Origin: a bacterium
GTDB lineage: Bacteria; RBG-13-66-14
DNA length: 24,786 nucleotides
Direction of reading: 5' to 3'
Assembly: GCA_035528375.1 (NCBI GenBank)
Contig: DATKYS010000101.1
Location: 1 to 24,786 of the forward strand
The position numbers and the translations under genes were made by a program. Below, piece after piece: positions 4,051 to 8,736 of the stretch. Position 1 is the first letter of the stretch, and each line of letters begins with the position of its first letter. The notes under the pieces were generated by a model, which saw only the letters and a list, made by a program, of their open reading frames with translations, made no database searches and was not told the DNA's origin.

Positions 4051-4746
4051 CTATTCGAGAAAACTCCCCCGAACCCCGATCCAGAGCTGCTCCACCGTAC
4101 CCGTGGAATTCACCTCGGCGAATATTTGCAGCCATCGTTCCAGCCGCGGGTCGGCGAAGGGGGGGAGGGGCAGCCTCGAGGCCTCCAGGAGCCAGCGGCG
4201 GTCGTCGCCCTCGCCCGTCCAGTCCACCGCCCGCCAGGTGAGGGAAACGAAATCAGCCGGGGTCGGGCGGAAGTTGCCGTTGTGCTCCGGGTGGGCCGAG
4301 AGGGCGTCCAGGTCCAGCTCTCCCAGCCGCTCGAGCCAGGCCTCCGGCAGCTCGACGGGGGGGACGGCGGTCGTATCGGCCGACGCCGCTCCACCGGACA
4401 GCCGGACGCCGTACCCGTAAACGCCGGTTTCGGACACGAGGGCGTCGGATAACCGGACGAGCGCATCGGTGAGCTCGGGACGCCGCGGTTCCAGGAAATA
4501 GACCTCGCGCGTGATCCCGCTCGAGTTCCAGGTGTACGAGGTCAGTGTGGTCAGGGCGCCGGTGTCGTGCAACAGGCCGCCGACCGTGACGCGGTCGCCC
4601 GGCTCCGAGCCGGGGGCGGTCACCCGGTCGGCCAGGTCGTCCGCGGGTGCGACGGGGTGAATTAGAGGGGGGGCGTCCTCCCGGCAGGCGGCGGAGAGGA
4701 CGAGGGCCGCGAATAGCGGAATCAAGCGGAGGGGCGTGTCATTCAA
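4051..4746 (-). CDS. Putative lipoprotein of unknown function
   Basis: The predicted protein has 231 residues. It begins with a short basic n-region, a hydrophobic stretch (about residues 8-20) and a lipobox-like L-S-A-A-C ending at C21, so it is probably a lipid-anchored envelope protein. No family is recognisable. The mature part has an acidic, alanine/proline-rich region around residues 115-135 and a tryptophan-containing C-terminal half (VSLTWRAVDWTG, RLERWLQIFAEV, EQLWIGVRG). The TTG at 4746 is chosen because it places the signal sequence at the very N-terminus. It overlaps the stop of the upstream TPR gene by 8 bp (TTGAATGA), and a GGAGG lies about 12 nt upstream. The overlap suggests translational coupling. 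Confidence 0.65.
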   Translation of the reverse strand: MNDTPLRLIPLFAALVLSAACREDAPPLIHPVAPADDLADRVTAPGSEPGDRVTVGGLLHDTGALTTLTSYTWNSSGITREVYFLEPRRPELTDALVRLSDALVSETGVYGYGVRLSGGAASADTTAVPPVELPEAWLERLGELDLDALSAHPEHNGNFRPTPADFVSLTWRAVDWTGEGDDRRWLLEASRLPLPPFADPRLERWLQIFAEVNSTGTVEQLWIGVRGSFLE

Positions 4747-5398
4747 CGATGTACCCAGCCTCCTCCTCGGTGATGACGTCCACCTCCTCCGTGGAGGAGG
4801 TGTCGTCGCGCAGGGCGGCGATGCGGTTCCGGGCGAAGGCGATGTCCCCCTCGCCCTCCGAGAGGCTGATGTAGCGCTGCCAGTGGCGGATGGCGTCCAG
4901 TGTGTCGCCGGTCTTCTCCAGGAGGAGGGCCAGGTTCCAGTGGGCCAGCGCGTAATCGGGCTTGATTTTGAGCGCCTCCTCGTAGGACTCCCGCGACAGG
5001 TCGTAGTACGACAGCTCCTGGTAGGCGTTTCCCAGGTTGTTGTACGCCTTGTAGTAGTAGGGCAGGACCTCGATGGCATTCTCGAAGTAGCTGACGGCGA
5101 GGGAGAAGAGCTTCGACTCCATGTAGACCAGGCCGAGGTTGTTGTTGACGAAGGGGTCGTCCGGGGCGATTTCCTGCGCCTTCTCGTACTCCCGGGTCGC
5201 GCCGCGCAGGTCTCCGGCGGCGAGGAGGACGTTGCCCGCGTCAATGTACCCGGCCAGCTCGGAGCTTTCTTGAGTTTCCGTCACCGTCGCAGTCTCCTCG
5301 GAGGTGGTGGCGGGATGGGAGCCGCCTCCCGTGCCGAAGAGGGAACAGCCGGTGCCGAGGATTAAAAGAAGGGGAAGGCCTGGGACGGGTGTTTTCAA
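4739..5398 (-). CDS. TPR-repeat lipoprotein
   Basis: The 219-residue protein has an N-terminal hydrophobic stretch and a lipobox-like L-G-T-G-C with C18 (G at -3 is imperfect). A serine/threonine/glutamate-rich linker follows, then about four tetratricopeptide repeats (about residues 46-185) with the usual W/L-G-Y-A-P spacing, for example NNLGLVYMESKLFSLAVSYF and YNNLGNAYQELSYYDLSRES. The C-terminus is acidic. TPR lipoproteins usually act as scaffolds in outer-membrane or secretion assemblies, and the partner here is unknown. The TTG at 5398 is preferred over the GTG at 5467 because GTG lies upstream of a strong promoter's predicted start (about 5423) and would put the signal sequence internally. 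GGAG lies 7 nt before the TTG. First gene of its operon. Confidence 0.75.
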   Translation of the reverse strand: MKTPVPGLPLLLILGTGCSLFGTGGGSHPATTSEETATVTETQESSELAGYIDAGNVLLAAGDLRGATREYEKAQEIAPDDPFVNNNLGLVYMESKLFSLAVSYFENAIEVLPYYYKAYNNLGNAYQELSYYDLSRESYEEALKIKPDYALAHWNLALLLEKTGDTLDAIRHWQRYISLSEGEGDIAFARNRIAALRDDTSSTEEVDVITEEEAGYIVE

Positions 5399-5429
5399 TT
5401 GTCGGCTCCGAGCTCTTTCGTTTGCGGGT

Positions 5430-5458
5430 ATTCTAGCGTTACGATGGACGGCAGTCAA
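5430..5458 (-). promoter_or_regulatory. Sigma-70 promoter of the minus-strand lipoprotein-PHP-hemW operon
   Basis: On the minus strand TTGACT (5458-5453), a 17-bp spacer and TAGAAT (5435-5430) form a near-consensus promoter. The predicted start is near 5423, giving a 25-nt leader before the TTG of the TPR lipoprotein gene. It is divergent from the promoter at 5523-5551. Confidence 0.75.
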
Positions 5459-5522
5459 TGGGTACACCGGGCGATACCGAGGCGGAGGGCCCGGAAGCGC
5501 GCCGGTATAACTGCATAAATCC

Positions 5523-5606: not shown

Positions 5607-6359
5607 ATGGACGACGACAGCCGAAGGAAAGATGAGCCCCGGGTGCGCTTTCGGCGCAGCGCGAAGCCGCGCACCAGGTCCGGTTCCGTCACGCACATCA
5701 TCCTCATGGGCGCCGCCCTGGCCGTAATCGTCTGGCTCATTTTTTACCTGAAGGATTCGAGCCTCTTCGGCGGCGACGGGGAAGGGGTGGAAACGGGGCG
5801 CACCCCCGTGGTCCGTGGGTCAGGTCTCGACATAGACGAGAATCTGATCAACTACTTCGATGAGGGCATCCAGCTCCTGCGGCCCGACCGCAATTGGGAA
5901 TTCGCCTACGGCACCGGCCTGCGCCACGACGAGGCGGACGCGTTCAGCGCGGTCGCGTGGCTGGACGCCACCGAGATCTGCCGGCTGACCCTCTACGACG
6001 CCGATCGGCCCGTGGCCAGGGTGCGGGTGGGGAAGCTCCAGCTTCAGGAGTCGCGCACGACCAGCTCGCTGGCCCGCCAGTCCTTCGAGAACATCATGCT
6101 CTACGCCCTGAACCCGGACCACCCGTACAATGTGGACACTTGGGAGCCCACGACCACCCTCGACTCGGACGGGCTCCAGGGCACCTACTACGTTATCAAA
6201 ATCACCCATTCGAAGAACACCCAGGCCGACATCCGCATCGTCGCCTTCTTCGTCAAGGATCTTTGGGTCTATACACTGATGGGCGAGGTGAGCTACGAGG
6301 AGTACGATCTCTACCGGGAGAAGTTGCGCTATATCTTCGGTCATTTTGTGTTTATATAG
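5607..6359 (+). CDS. Single-pass membrane protein of unknown function
   Basis: The 250-residue protein starts with a strongly charged, arginine-rich N-terminus (residues 1-25), then one membrane segment (about 30-48), then a roughly 200-residue soluble domain. The charge pattern predicts the N-terminus in the cytoplasm and the domain outside. The C-terminal half has an alternating beta pattern with aromatic residues (YYVIKITHSK, RIVAFFVKDLWVYTLMGEV) and ends YLYRE-like, KLRYIFGHFVFI. I do not recognise a family. The ATG at 5607 has no clear binding site. A TTG at 5592, with GGATAAG upstream, would add five residues and is a real alternative. The gene has its own promoter, and its stop lies inside a 9-bp inverted repeat. 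Confidence 0.65.
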   Translation: MDDDSRRKDEPRVRFRRSAKPRTRSGSVTHIILMGAALAVIVWLIFYLKDSSLFGGDGEGVETGRTPVVRGSGLDIDENLINYFDEGIQLLRPDRNWEFAYGTGLRHDEADAFSAVAWLDATEICRLTLYDADRPVARVRVGKLQLQESRTTSSLARQSFENIMLYALNPDHPYNVDTWEPTTTLDSDGLQGTYYVIKITHSKNTQADIRIVAFFVKDLWVYTLMGEVSYEEYDLYREKLRYIFGHFVFI

Positions 6360-6565: not shown

Positions 6566-7618
6566 ATGGTTGACCAGAGTTATATCGAGGAGATCAAGCG
6601 GAGAAACGCCGAGCGGGCGGCCAAGCTCAAGGAAAGCCTGAAGATCGGCGATTTTTCGAAGCTCGCCCCTTCGGGAACCGGCGACGAGCCGCCCGGAGCA
6701 GTGGTGATCACCCCGGGGGGCGCAAGAAAAGCCGCCGGACCACCTCCCCCTCCCGCGGGAAAACCGGCCGCCGCAGGACCGCCCCCTCCGCCGCCCTCCC
6801 GGACCGAAGCGGTTCGCACCGCTCCTCCGCTCCCGCAGACCGCCGCCCGAGTCGCATCAGCTCCTCCTCCGCCGCCCGAAGCCCGGGCCGAGAGACCGGC
6901 CCCGCCCCCCGAAGCGGTGAGAGAGCCCCTCGTTCCCTCCGAGGGCATTTGGGACGAGATTCTCGGTGAGACCGTGGAGGCCGCGCCCGACGAGATGCCG
7001 TCCCCCCTGGACACCGGCCCCAGCACCTCCGAGCTCGAAGAATTCAAGGTGCCTCTCTTCGACACGACCCGGATCGAGGAGGAGGAGGTCGAGGAGGAGG
7101 AAGAGGTAGCCGCGGTGTCGGAAGAACAGGAAGGCATAACCGACGAGTTCGTCGTCCCCGCTTTCGATTCCGGAACGACCACGGAGGTGGTCGAGGAGGA
7201 GTACGCAGTTCCGGCCTTCGATTCCGCGGAAGCAGAGGCCCTCGTCGAGGCCGAGGAGGAGTACGCGGTCCCGGCCTTCGATTCCTCCGCCGCGGCGCCC
7301 GCGCCCGTCGAGGAGGCCGCCGTCCCCGCCTTCGATACCTCCGAGCCCGTCGAGGAGCTGGAGGAGGTCGAGGAGGAGTACGCGGTTCCCGCCTTCGACA
7401 CCGCCGTCGAGGTCCCGGTGGAGGCACCGCTCAGGCCGGCCGCCGGGATTCCGGTCGCCGAGCCCGCCGCTGCGGCGCTGACGACCTTCGACAACTACAT
7501 CGTCCTCGAGGTCAAGGGTTCGGAGCTCCGTCTGAGGCGCCGCAACATTTCGCTGCGCGAGGCCGTCTCCCTCTTCGAGGTTGCCCTGGAGGAGTGCCGC
7601 AAACTCCTCGAGGAATAG
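6566..7618 (+). CDS. Disordered repeat protein with six V-P-(A/L)-F-D motifs, next to mreB
   Basis: The 350-residue protein has no recognised family. Residues 1-32 form a charged, probably helical head (IEEIKRRNAERAAKLKESL). Residues about 53-120 are proline/alanine-rich with runs of prolines. Residues about 155-285 are very acidic and carry six copies of a V-P-(A/L)-F-D-(S/T) motif starting at V162, V197, V215, V235, V253 and V274. Three copies have the longer form EEEYAVPAFD. Residues about 300-350 form a compact C-terminal segment (FDNYIVLEVKGSELRLRRR) ending in a probable amphipathic helix (LREAVSLFEVALEECRKLLEE). No signal peptide or membrane segment is present, so it is cytoplasmic. The ATG has GGAAGGA 6 nt upstream. 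The mreB frame begins 20 bp after the stop, probably on the same transcript. This suggests, but does not show, a role with the MreB cytoskeleton. Confidence 0.75.
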   Translation: MVDQSYIEEIKRRNAERAAKLKESLKIGDFSKLAPSGTGDEPPGAVVITPGGARKAAGPPPPPAGKPAAAGPPPPPPSRTEAVRTAPPLPQTAARVASAPPPPPEARAERPAPPPEAVREPLVPSEGIWDEILGETVEAAPDEMPSPLDTGPSTSELEEFKVPLFDTTRIEEEEVEEEEEVAAVSEEQEGITDEFVVPAFDSGTTTEVVEEEYAVPAFDSAEAEALVEAEEEYAVPAFDSSAAAPAPVEEAAVPAFDTSEPVEELEEVEEEYAVPAFDTAVEVPVEAPLRPAAGIPVAEPAAAALTTFDNYIVLEVKGSELRLRRRNISLREAVSLFEVALEECRKLLEE

Positions 7619-7638: not shown

Positions 7639-8736
7639 ATGCGGGGCGCAGCGTTGCGCCCCAATCTGAACTCCGACCGAGTCCGCCAACCGTTCGAGTC
7701 CAACGAGCGCGCCTTGATCTTCAACAAGATACACCCCCGCTACATCGCCCTGGACCTGGGAACCACCAGCACCCTGATCCACCTCGAGGGTCAGGGTGTG
7801 GTTGTGAACGAGCCCTCGGTCATCGCCGTCAACGAGAAGGGGCAGATCGAGGCGCTGGGCCATGAGGCCAAGCGGATGCTGGGGCGCACCCCGCCGAACA
7901 TCCGCGCCATTCGGCCCATGGAGGACGGCGTCATCGCCGACTACGAGACCGCCGAGCTCATGCTCAAGGCCCTTTTGCGCCAGGCGCTCAAGGGGGCGTC
8001 CATCGTGAAGCCGAGGGCGCTGTGCTGCGTGCCCTCGGGGATAACGGAGGTGGAGAAGCGGGCGATCCGCGACTCGGTGAAGAACGCCGGCGTCCGGGAG
8101 ATATACCTCATTGAGGAGCCCATCGCCGCCGCGGTGGGGATGCGGCTCCCCATCGAGGAGAGCACCGGCTCCATCGTGGTGGACGTGGGCGGCGGCACCA
8201 CCGAGGTCGCCGTGATGTGCCTCGGCGGGGTGGTGGTGTCCGAGTCGCGCAAGATCGGCGGGAACGTGATGGACGAGGCTGTGGACCGCTACCTCCGCAG
8301 CCACTACAACATCTTCGTCGGCGAGCAGATCTGCGAGGAGATAAAGATCACCATCGGCTCCGCCGTGCCCCTGGAGGAGGAGGAGAACTTCGTGGTCAAG
8401 GGCCGGAACATGCTCAACGGCATCCCGACCACGGTGACGATCAGCTCCACCGAGGTGCGCGAGGCGCTGCGCGAGTGCATCGTGCAGGTGATAGGCGCCG
8501 TCCGCTCCACCCTGGAGCAGACGCCGCCCGAGCTGGCCTCCGACATCGTCAACGCCGGGATCAACATGACGGGCGGCGGCTCGCTGTTGAAGCGCCTGGA
8601 CGACGCCATCACCCAGGAAACGAACCTCAGGGTCCACCGCGCCGCTTCGCCCCTGACCACGATCATCGAGGGGCTCGGGATGATTCTGGACGACTTCCGC
8701 CGTTACCGGAGACTCTTTAACCTCTACCCGACGTAG
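7639..8736 (+). CDS. mreB: Rod shape-determining protein MreB (bacterial actin)
   Basis: MreB forms ATP-dependent membrane-bound filaments that guide cell-wall synthesis along the cell side wall. The 365-residue sequence has the actin-fold motifs in order: phosphate-1 DLGTTSTL (from D39), the EEPIAAAVG connecting segment, phosphate-2 VDVGGGTTEVAV, and adenosine motif MTGGGSLL. Interior segments such as NEPSVIA, MEDGVIADYE and CVPSGITEVEKRAI are typical of MreB. Usual length is 335-350, so the first 20-25 residues may be extra. The ATG at 7639 has a weak binding site, and a TTG at 7714 would give a standard N-terminus. The usual mreC-mreD partners do not follow. Instead a strong terminator closes the unit. 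Confidence 0.95.
   Translation: MRGAALRPNLNSDRVRQPFESNERALIFNKIHPRYIALDLGTTSTLIHLEGQGVVVNEPSVIAVNEKGQIEALGHEAKRMLGRTPPNIRAIRPMEDGVIADYETAELMLKALLRQALKGASIVKPRALCCVPSGITEVEKRAIRDSVKNAGVREIYLIEEPIAAAVGMRLPIEESTGSIVVDVGGGTTEVAVMCLGGVVVSESRKIGGNVMDEAVDRYLRSHYNIFVGEQICEEIKITIGSAVPLEEEENFVVKGRNMLNGIPTTVTISSTEVREALRECIVQVIGAVRSTLEQTPPELASDIVNAGINMTGGGSLLKRLDDAITQETNLRVHRAASPLTTIIEGLGMILDDFRRYRRLFNLYPT

Follow-up and report, generated by a model that had tools for sequence, protein, structure and literature searches.

The stretch of DNA analyzed here (the window) is 24,786 nucleotides long and carries three adjacent, collinear genes on its forward strand. They encode a membrane-anchored protein (5607 to 6359), a protein that we call the scaffold (6566 to 7618), and a second MreB, MreB2 (7714 to 8736). 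A gene for a TPR lipoprotein (4739 to 5467) is transcribed divergently from the reverse strand. The window genome (G000) was studied within a sample of 14 genomes of Candidatus Coatesbacteria, seven of which belong to its own family, f1 (G000 to G006), and seven to other families. In f1 the three forward genes are likewise adjacent and collinear, and the position of the lipoprotein gene is kept.

The membrane-anchored protein is composed of a short basic cytosolic N-terminus (EPRVRFRR), one predicted transmembrane (TM) helix, and an outer domain. Its predicted cytosolic part is about 25 residues long, and the EPRVxF stretch within it is invariant. A modest structural model (mean pLDDT of 50) matched the outer domain to the PsbP/DcrB/Mog1 fold, with Foldseek E values from about 1e-5. 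The best VIA-align match (3lyd_A) had a Z score of 12.7 and an rmsd of 2.9 over 135 residues, and DcrB had a Z score of 11.9. Although the outer domain shares this fold, the protein is only about 8 to 13% identical to its members and adds the cytosolic tail and the TM helix. As modeled, the fold alone gives no readable role.

The scaffold gene is preceded by a Shine-Dalgarno-like GGAAGGA and encodes, from an ATG start, a protein of 350 amino acids. An AlphaFold2 model built on 12 homologues predicted a helix at residues 4 to 27 (pLDDT, 83 to 90), no structure from residue 37 to 306, strands at 311 to 317 and 320 to 326, and a helix at 330 to 349. The head helix (IEEIKRRNAERAAKLKESL; 6575 to 6646) is followed by a proline-rich disordered linker with PPPPP runs (residues 37 to 124; 6674 to 6937), the peptide GIWDEILG (6944 to 6967), an acidic linker with six VPxFD motifs, and a C-terminal strand-strand-helix domain, the tail (residues 308 to 350; 7487 to 7615). 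Head and tail are conserved throughout the phylum. In the alignment of the 12 homologues, I7, E8, R12, R13, N14, R17, and L21 of the head are invariant. GIWDEILG is invariant in f1 and contains the single tryptophan of the scaffold; exactly one tryptophan, followed by D or E, is found in every homologue. The acidic fraction of the linkers ranges from 0.19 to 0.36 and their proline fraction from 0.17 to 0.27. The initial annotation had placed the motifs in an acidic disordered region between a basic helical head and a helical tail. Model and composition agree with that setting, and the head is indeed a helix, but it is only weakly basic (net charge of +2 over 36 residues), and the helix of the tail is preceded by two strands.

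The protein had been described as unrecognized, and it does lie outside current models. No Pfam family matched it at E values up to 0.1, nor did any NCBIfam family or any sequence in the PDB. A profile search with the tail against the PDB matched only short helix fragments of repeat proteins, which we do not regard as relatives, and comparison of the scaffold model by Foldseek and VIA-align gave nothing significant (best E value, 3.1; Z score of 2.8 to the P1 ParB dimer domain). A WH2-like actin-binding head was rejected for want of a Pfam match. An amphipathic, membrane-binding head was also rejected: its hydrophobic moment did not exceed that of shuffled sequences, 1,551 of 5,000 of which reached the observed value.

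The translated reading frame bears out the six copies of V-P-(A/L)-F-D-(S/T), spaced 18 to 35 residues apart, that were noted initially. They are VPLFDT (residues 162 to 167; 7049 to 7066), VPAFDS (197 to 202; 7154 to 7171), VPAFDS (215 to 220; 7208 to 7225), VPAFDS (235 to 240; 7268 to 7285), VPAFDT (253 to 258; 7322 to 7339), and VPAFDT (274 to 279; 7385 to 7402). Composition-preserving shuffles of the linker (n = 50,000) contained on average 0.0097 matches to [VI]PxF[DG], and none reached the observed six. The VPAFD-coding DNA (GTNCCNGCNTTYGAY) occurs at five sites in the 2.63-Mb assembly, all of them inside the scaffold gene. Recent tandem duplication of DNA was rejected as the origin of the array. 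Only weak short-period arrays were detected, and the motif copies differ at synonymous third positions, which argues against a fresh duplication.

Motif numbers in f1 were six in G000, five in G001, seven in both G004 and G006, and five in G005 (six if one VPSFA is counted). The f1 consensus is [DE][DE][FY]xVPxFD[ST], with relaxed forms such as VPKFG and VPSFA in G005. Across these five species, the core P and F are present in 31 of 31 motifs, with V or I in the first position. Since the conserved core letters are fixed by the search pattern, the weight lies on the number of motifs, which is far above that in shuffles. Asp follows PxF in 26 of the 31 motifs; in the others this position holds Gly or Ala, and in none a large hydrophobe. 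As to loss of motif number and sequence among close relatives, which the initial annotation held to count against its proposal, five to seven copies persist across four genera.

Between G000 and G001, the dN/dS ratio was 0.18 for the motifs, 0.13 for the head, and 0.03 for the tail, as opposed to 0.47 for the proline-rich linker and 0.73 for the other, although these values are rough because few synonymous sites were counted per region. GIWDEILG had no nonsynonymous changes. Judged by these ratios, the motifs, the head, the tail, and GIWDEILG are under purifying selection, whereas the linkers drift.

The product of mreB2 scored 411.7 bits against MreB_Mbl (cutoff, 27), 413.6 against TIGR00904 (cutoff, 365.75), and 435.7 against NF010539 (cutoff, 293). 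Alignment with Thermotoga maritima MreB (1jce) located the nucleotide-binding motifs DLGT, EEPxAAA, DxGGGTTEVAV, and TGGGxL. A maximum-likelihood tree built from 36 MreB sequences grouped the scaffold-linked copies from six f1 genomes into one clade (SH-aLRT of 100) on a long stem (0.72), separate from the canonical f1 copies, from the sole copies present in other Coatesbacteria, and from the MreBs of other phyla. The other MreB of the window genome is encoded on contig C84, and the seven Coatesbacteria outside f1 have one MreB match each. The canonical mreBCD arrangement was not found at mreB2, which has no mreC or mreD downstream; ORFs that resemble MreC and MreD by eye trail the other MreB in G004 and G006 (loci L046 and L047). 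The neighbor of the scaffold had been called mreB, and it passes the MreB models, but it is a second, family-specific MreB and not the mreBCD-type copy.

The intergenic distance also requires revision. The 20 bp given initially is correct to the first ATG of the open frame, at 7639. A start at this ATG would, however, add 25 nonconserved residues (7639 to 7716), and in G001 and G003, two relatives from the same genus, the mreB frame is broken by a stop codon before the conserved LIFNKI start. Thus, mreB2 probably starts at TTG 7714, giving a gap of about 95 bp. The C-terminus of MreB2 ends in a conserved (K/R)LFNLxP (8700 to 8736), which is absent from canonical MreBs and is a possible interaction peptide.

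Six of the seven f1 genomes carry mreB2, and all seven carry the gene for the TM protein; both were absent from the seven other Coatesbacteria. The array is present in each f1 genome whose contigs cover the scaffold gene and in no homologue from outside f1. Where contigs allow, the scaffold gene lies directly upstream of mreB2 in f1, and the two are neighbors wherever a contig reaches (G000, G001, G004, G005, and G006); the G003 copy spans two contigs. In G002 (75% complete), neither scaffold nor mreB2 was found, and the TM protein gene lies at a contig end. Judged by this distribution, the f1 traits are the array, mreB2, and the TM protein, and head and tail appear to be ancient. The co-occurrence of array and mreB2 rests on one clade (the six genomes with mreB2) and so counts as one evolutionary event. 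The f1 homologues confirm that the gene is real and conserved. The initial annotation asked whether it always precedes mreB; the motif-bearing f1 homologues precede mreB2, but the head-tail homologues found elsewhere do not. Our literature search found no paper linking Coatesbacteria with MreB.

These head-tail homologues make up an older family. A 41-residue tail profile, which included one member from outside f1 (G012), matched exactly one ORF in 13 of the 14 Coatesbacteria genomes, the exception being the incomplete G002. E values were about 1e-24 to 1e-21 in f1, with 2e-24 as the lowest, and 2e-19 to 4e-8 outside it. The G012 homologue was first matched by the scaffold protein of the window at an E value of 0.007, with both ends aligned. 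Independently, a profile built solely from f1 sequences recovered the heads of three of these ORFs from outside f1 (E values of 1.5e-4 to 2.4e-3). Outside the phylum, in the remainder of a 290-genome sample, the tail gave only short matches with E values of at least 0.004, which we judged to be due to chance. The family is characterized by a head of the type DPIEAIKRRNEERA, an acidic, proline-rich linker with one tryptophan, and a tail of the type VxGNKVRIxRRNIxL. It is a phylum-wide and hitherto undescribed family of scaffolds that lies outside Alphaproteobacteria and has a layout like that of PopZ.

The homologues of every other Coatesbacteria family sampled lack the VPxFD array and are encoded away from mreB. 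Since they possess head and tail all the same, these two parts did not originate as docking sites for MreB. The comparison suggests that head and tail are ancestral, and that the array and the linkage to mreB2 are derived. At the non-f1 loci examined, a small TM zinc-ribbon protein is encoded downstream of the homologue; the f2, f3, and f5 loci have two further genes nearby, one for a secreted protein of about 550 amino acids that matches no Pfam family and one for a radical-SAM/SPASM protein. This conserved gene set of scaffold, zinc-ribbon TM protein, secreted protein, and radical-SAM/SPASM protein occupies L043 4665 to 10282, L094 3804 to 10206, and L089 5168 to 9779; L043 and L094 also hold a methyltransferase-like ORF. 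In f1, the secreted protein (contig C31 of G000) and the scaffold sit on different contigs. A second, partial copy of the secreted-protein gene with two in-frame TAG codons, possibly a pseudogene, is located at G000:C126:32825-33382. The homologues of f3, f4, and f5 each contain one (D/E)(F/L)DL(S/G)SF peptide, which may be a single ancestral version of the VPxFD repeat.

From sequence comparison, the f1 scaffold probably works as a multisite scaffold for the MreB2 filament or for membrane partners. The array is found where mreB2 and the TM protein are found; head and tail do not depend on these two. The most economical reading is that the array docks an f1-specific protein. Of the two candidates, MreB2 is the stronger, since a multivalent chain would meet many equivalent sites along a filament. 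We assign a probability of about 45% to the reading that the scaffold is a hub with the layout of PopZ in which the array serves to dock MreB2, or its module, and to gather it into clusters at the membrane, a partnership suggested by co-occurrence. The initial annotation proposed multivalent docking on MreB; conservation of the motifs and linkage to mreB2 speak for the idea, but its object would be a family-specific paralogue rather than MreB in general. RodZ is the canonical MreB adaptor. No RodZ-type HTH_25 domain scored above the curated cutoff in any of the 14 Coatesbacteria genomes, all of which have MreB, so RodZ may be absent from the phylum or very divergent. The lack of a match in the f1 genomes makes another MreB adaptor plausible there.

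In the proposed mechanism, the scaffold would be a cytoplasmic, mostly disordered hub in which the ancient head helix and tail flank a linker rich in proline and acidic residues. Each of the five to seven [DE][FY]xVPxFD[ST] peptides would bind weakly to one site on MreB2; DEFVVPAFDSGTT is a candidate peptide for this docking. The strand-strand-helix tail is probably the self-assembly part, and one scaffold multimer would then bridge several MreB2 subunits or filaments. Head and tail would connect the scaffold molecules with one another and with an older partner. MreB2 would thereby be clustered into a membrane-associated patch that positions the envelope protein. A fuller scenario can be put forward tentatively, with the odds leaning against it: an ancient hub gained the VPxFD array together with MreB2, and its linker decorates MreB2 filaments multivalently, tying them to the membrane-anchored envelope protein.

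Docking on MreB2 has to be weighed against the fact that in other Coatesbacteria families the scaffold homologue works without an adjoining MreB. It is doubtful, though worth serious consideration, that the array docks another partner, in the simplest case the TM protein, or else an unlinked client. The TM protein shares the f1-only distribution and could equally be the motif partner, and its invariant basic cytosolic EPRVxF could pair with an acidic peptide, although a cytosolic part of about 25 residues is short. The possible ancestor of the repeat in f3, f4, and f5 occurs where MreB2 is absent, but its resemblance to the repeat was judged by eye. With another partner, mreB2 would be in the operon by virtue of the same envelope process or by binding to another part of the scaffold.

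It is unlikely that the motifs are instead stickers for self-association, binding the tail or head of the scaffold itself to form a condensate with MreB2 as a passive client or neighbor. The layout and composition resemble those of PopZ (PMC9512792), and copy number varies between five and seven among genera, as that of stickers may. Head and tail are conserved, however, in families without the array and so had an origin separate from that of the motifs. In addition, the motif region is unstructured in the AlphaFold2 model (pLDDT of about 45), which is weak negative evidence.

We consider it very improbable that the array arose as a low-complexity expansion specific to this lineage, plays no part in docking, and lies next to mreB2 by coincidental cotranscription. 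The linkers do expand and contract, and G001 lacks some 20 residues of G000 that include one motif (around motif 3). Nevertheless, the P and F of the core and the V or I before them are kept in every motif, the motif count far exceeds that of shuffles, the motifs are constrained while their flanks drift, and the linkage holds across four genera. The least credible reading is mimicry of the FtsZ tail, in which VPxF would copy the IPAF core, compete for or recruit FtsZ-tail binders, and link MreB2 to division: the FtsZ tail of the sister family f3 (EFDIPAFIRQR) is close to DEFVVPAFDS, and FtsZ tail peptides bind actin-fold FtsA among others (PMC4117426), but the Asp found in 26 of 31 motifs at the position matching Escherichia coli FtsZ L378 makes functional mimicry unlikely, the conserved Arg after the core is missing, and the FtsZ tail of f1 itself (DLDRPTFMR) is unlike the motif.

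If the fuller scenario is correct, the scaffold would be the bacterial equivalent of the proteins that bind actin through tandem motifs, in a phylum without detected RodZ. The MreB partners known so far are mostly folded or membrane proteins; a conserved array of short docking motifs that arose along with a second MreB would show that multivalent disordered linkers can organize bacterial actins as well. The sister families would offer an evolutionary before-and-after, with a hub lacking array and MreB2 there and a hub with both in f1. The system also supplies testable peptides and proteins of an uncultured phylum.

The scaffold resembles RodZ in its proposed role as a dedicated MreB adaptor, but it has neither the N-terminal HTH_25 domain nor a TM helix and, with no Pfam match, was rejected as a RodZ member. 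Extra MreB paralogues occur in other bacteria, for example, Bacillus subtilis. Like MreB, Mbl, and MreBH, MreB2 passes the cutoffs of Pfam MreB_Mbl and NCBIfam mreB; unlike them, it is confined to f1 on a stem of 0.72, lacks adjoining mreCD, and has a KLFNLxP-type C-terminus.

PopZ, the polar scaffold of Caulobacter, shares with the f1 scaffold the order of its parts, namely, an N-terminal helix, a disordered linker rich in proline and acidic residues, and a folded C-terminal part. In PopZ, the N-terminal helix takes clients and the C-terminal region is responsible for assembly, and the linker is 0.29 acidic and 0.23 proline (PMC9512792), which is near the composition of the scaffold linkers. 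The scaffold differs in its strand-strand-helix tail, as opposed to the helical oligomerization domain of PopZ, in its multivalent VPxFD array, in its position beside MreB, and in belonging to a different phylum. Membership in the PopZ family was rejected, as neither Pfam nor NCBIfam gave a match.

The C-terminal conserved peptide of FtsZ (DYLDIPAFLRKQAD) binds its receptors with a Kd of about 20 to 80 micromolar; in E. coli FtsZ, L378E abolished SlmA binding, and L378 is critical for binding ZipA, FtsA, and MinC (PMC4117426). Together with PopZ, it is a precedent for the action proposed here for weakly binding peptides on disordered linkers. Within the phylum, this peptide varies from DLDRPTFMR or DLQRPTFMR in f1 (L055 to L060) to EFDIPAFIRQR in f3 (L050 to L053). 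The VPxFD motif is similar in its hydrophobe-Pro-x-Phe core, which likewise follows an acidic stretch and is carried on a disordered linker, and the weak binding proposed for it would match that of the FtsZ peptide. In contrast to that peptide, VPxFD has Asp in place of Leu, Met, or Ile with no Arg after it, and it is internal, repeated five to seven times, and carried by a protein other than FtsZ.
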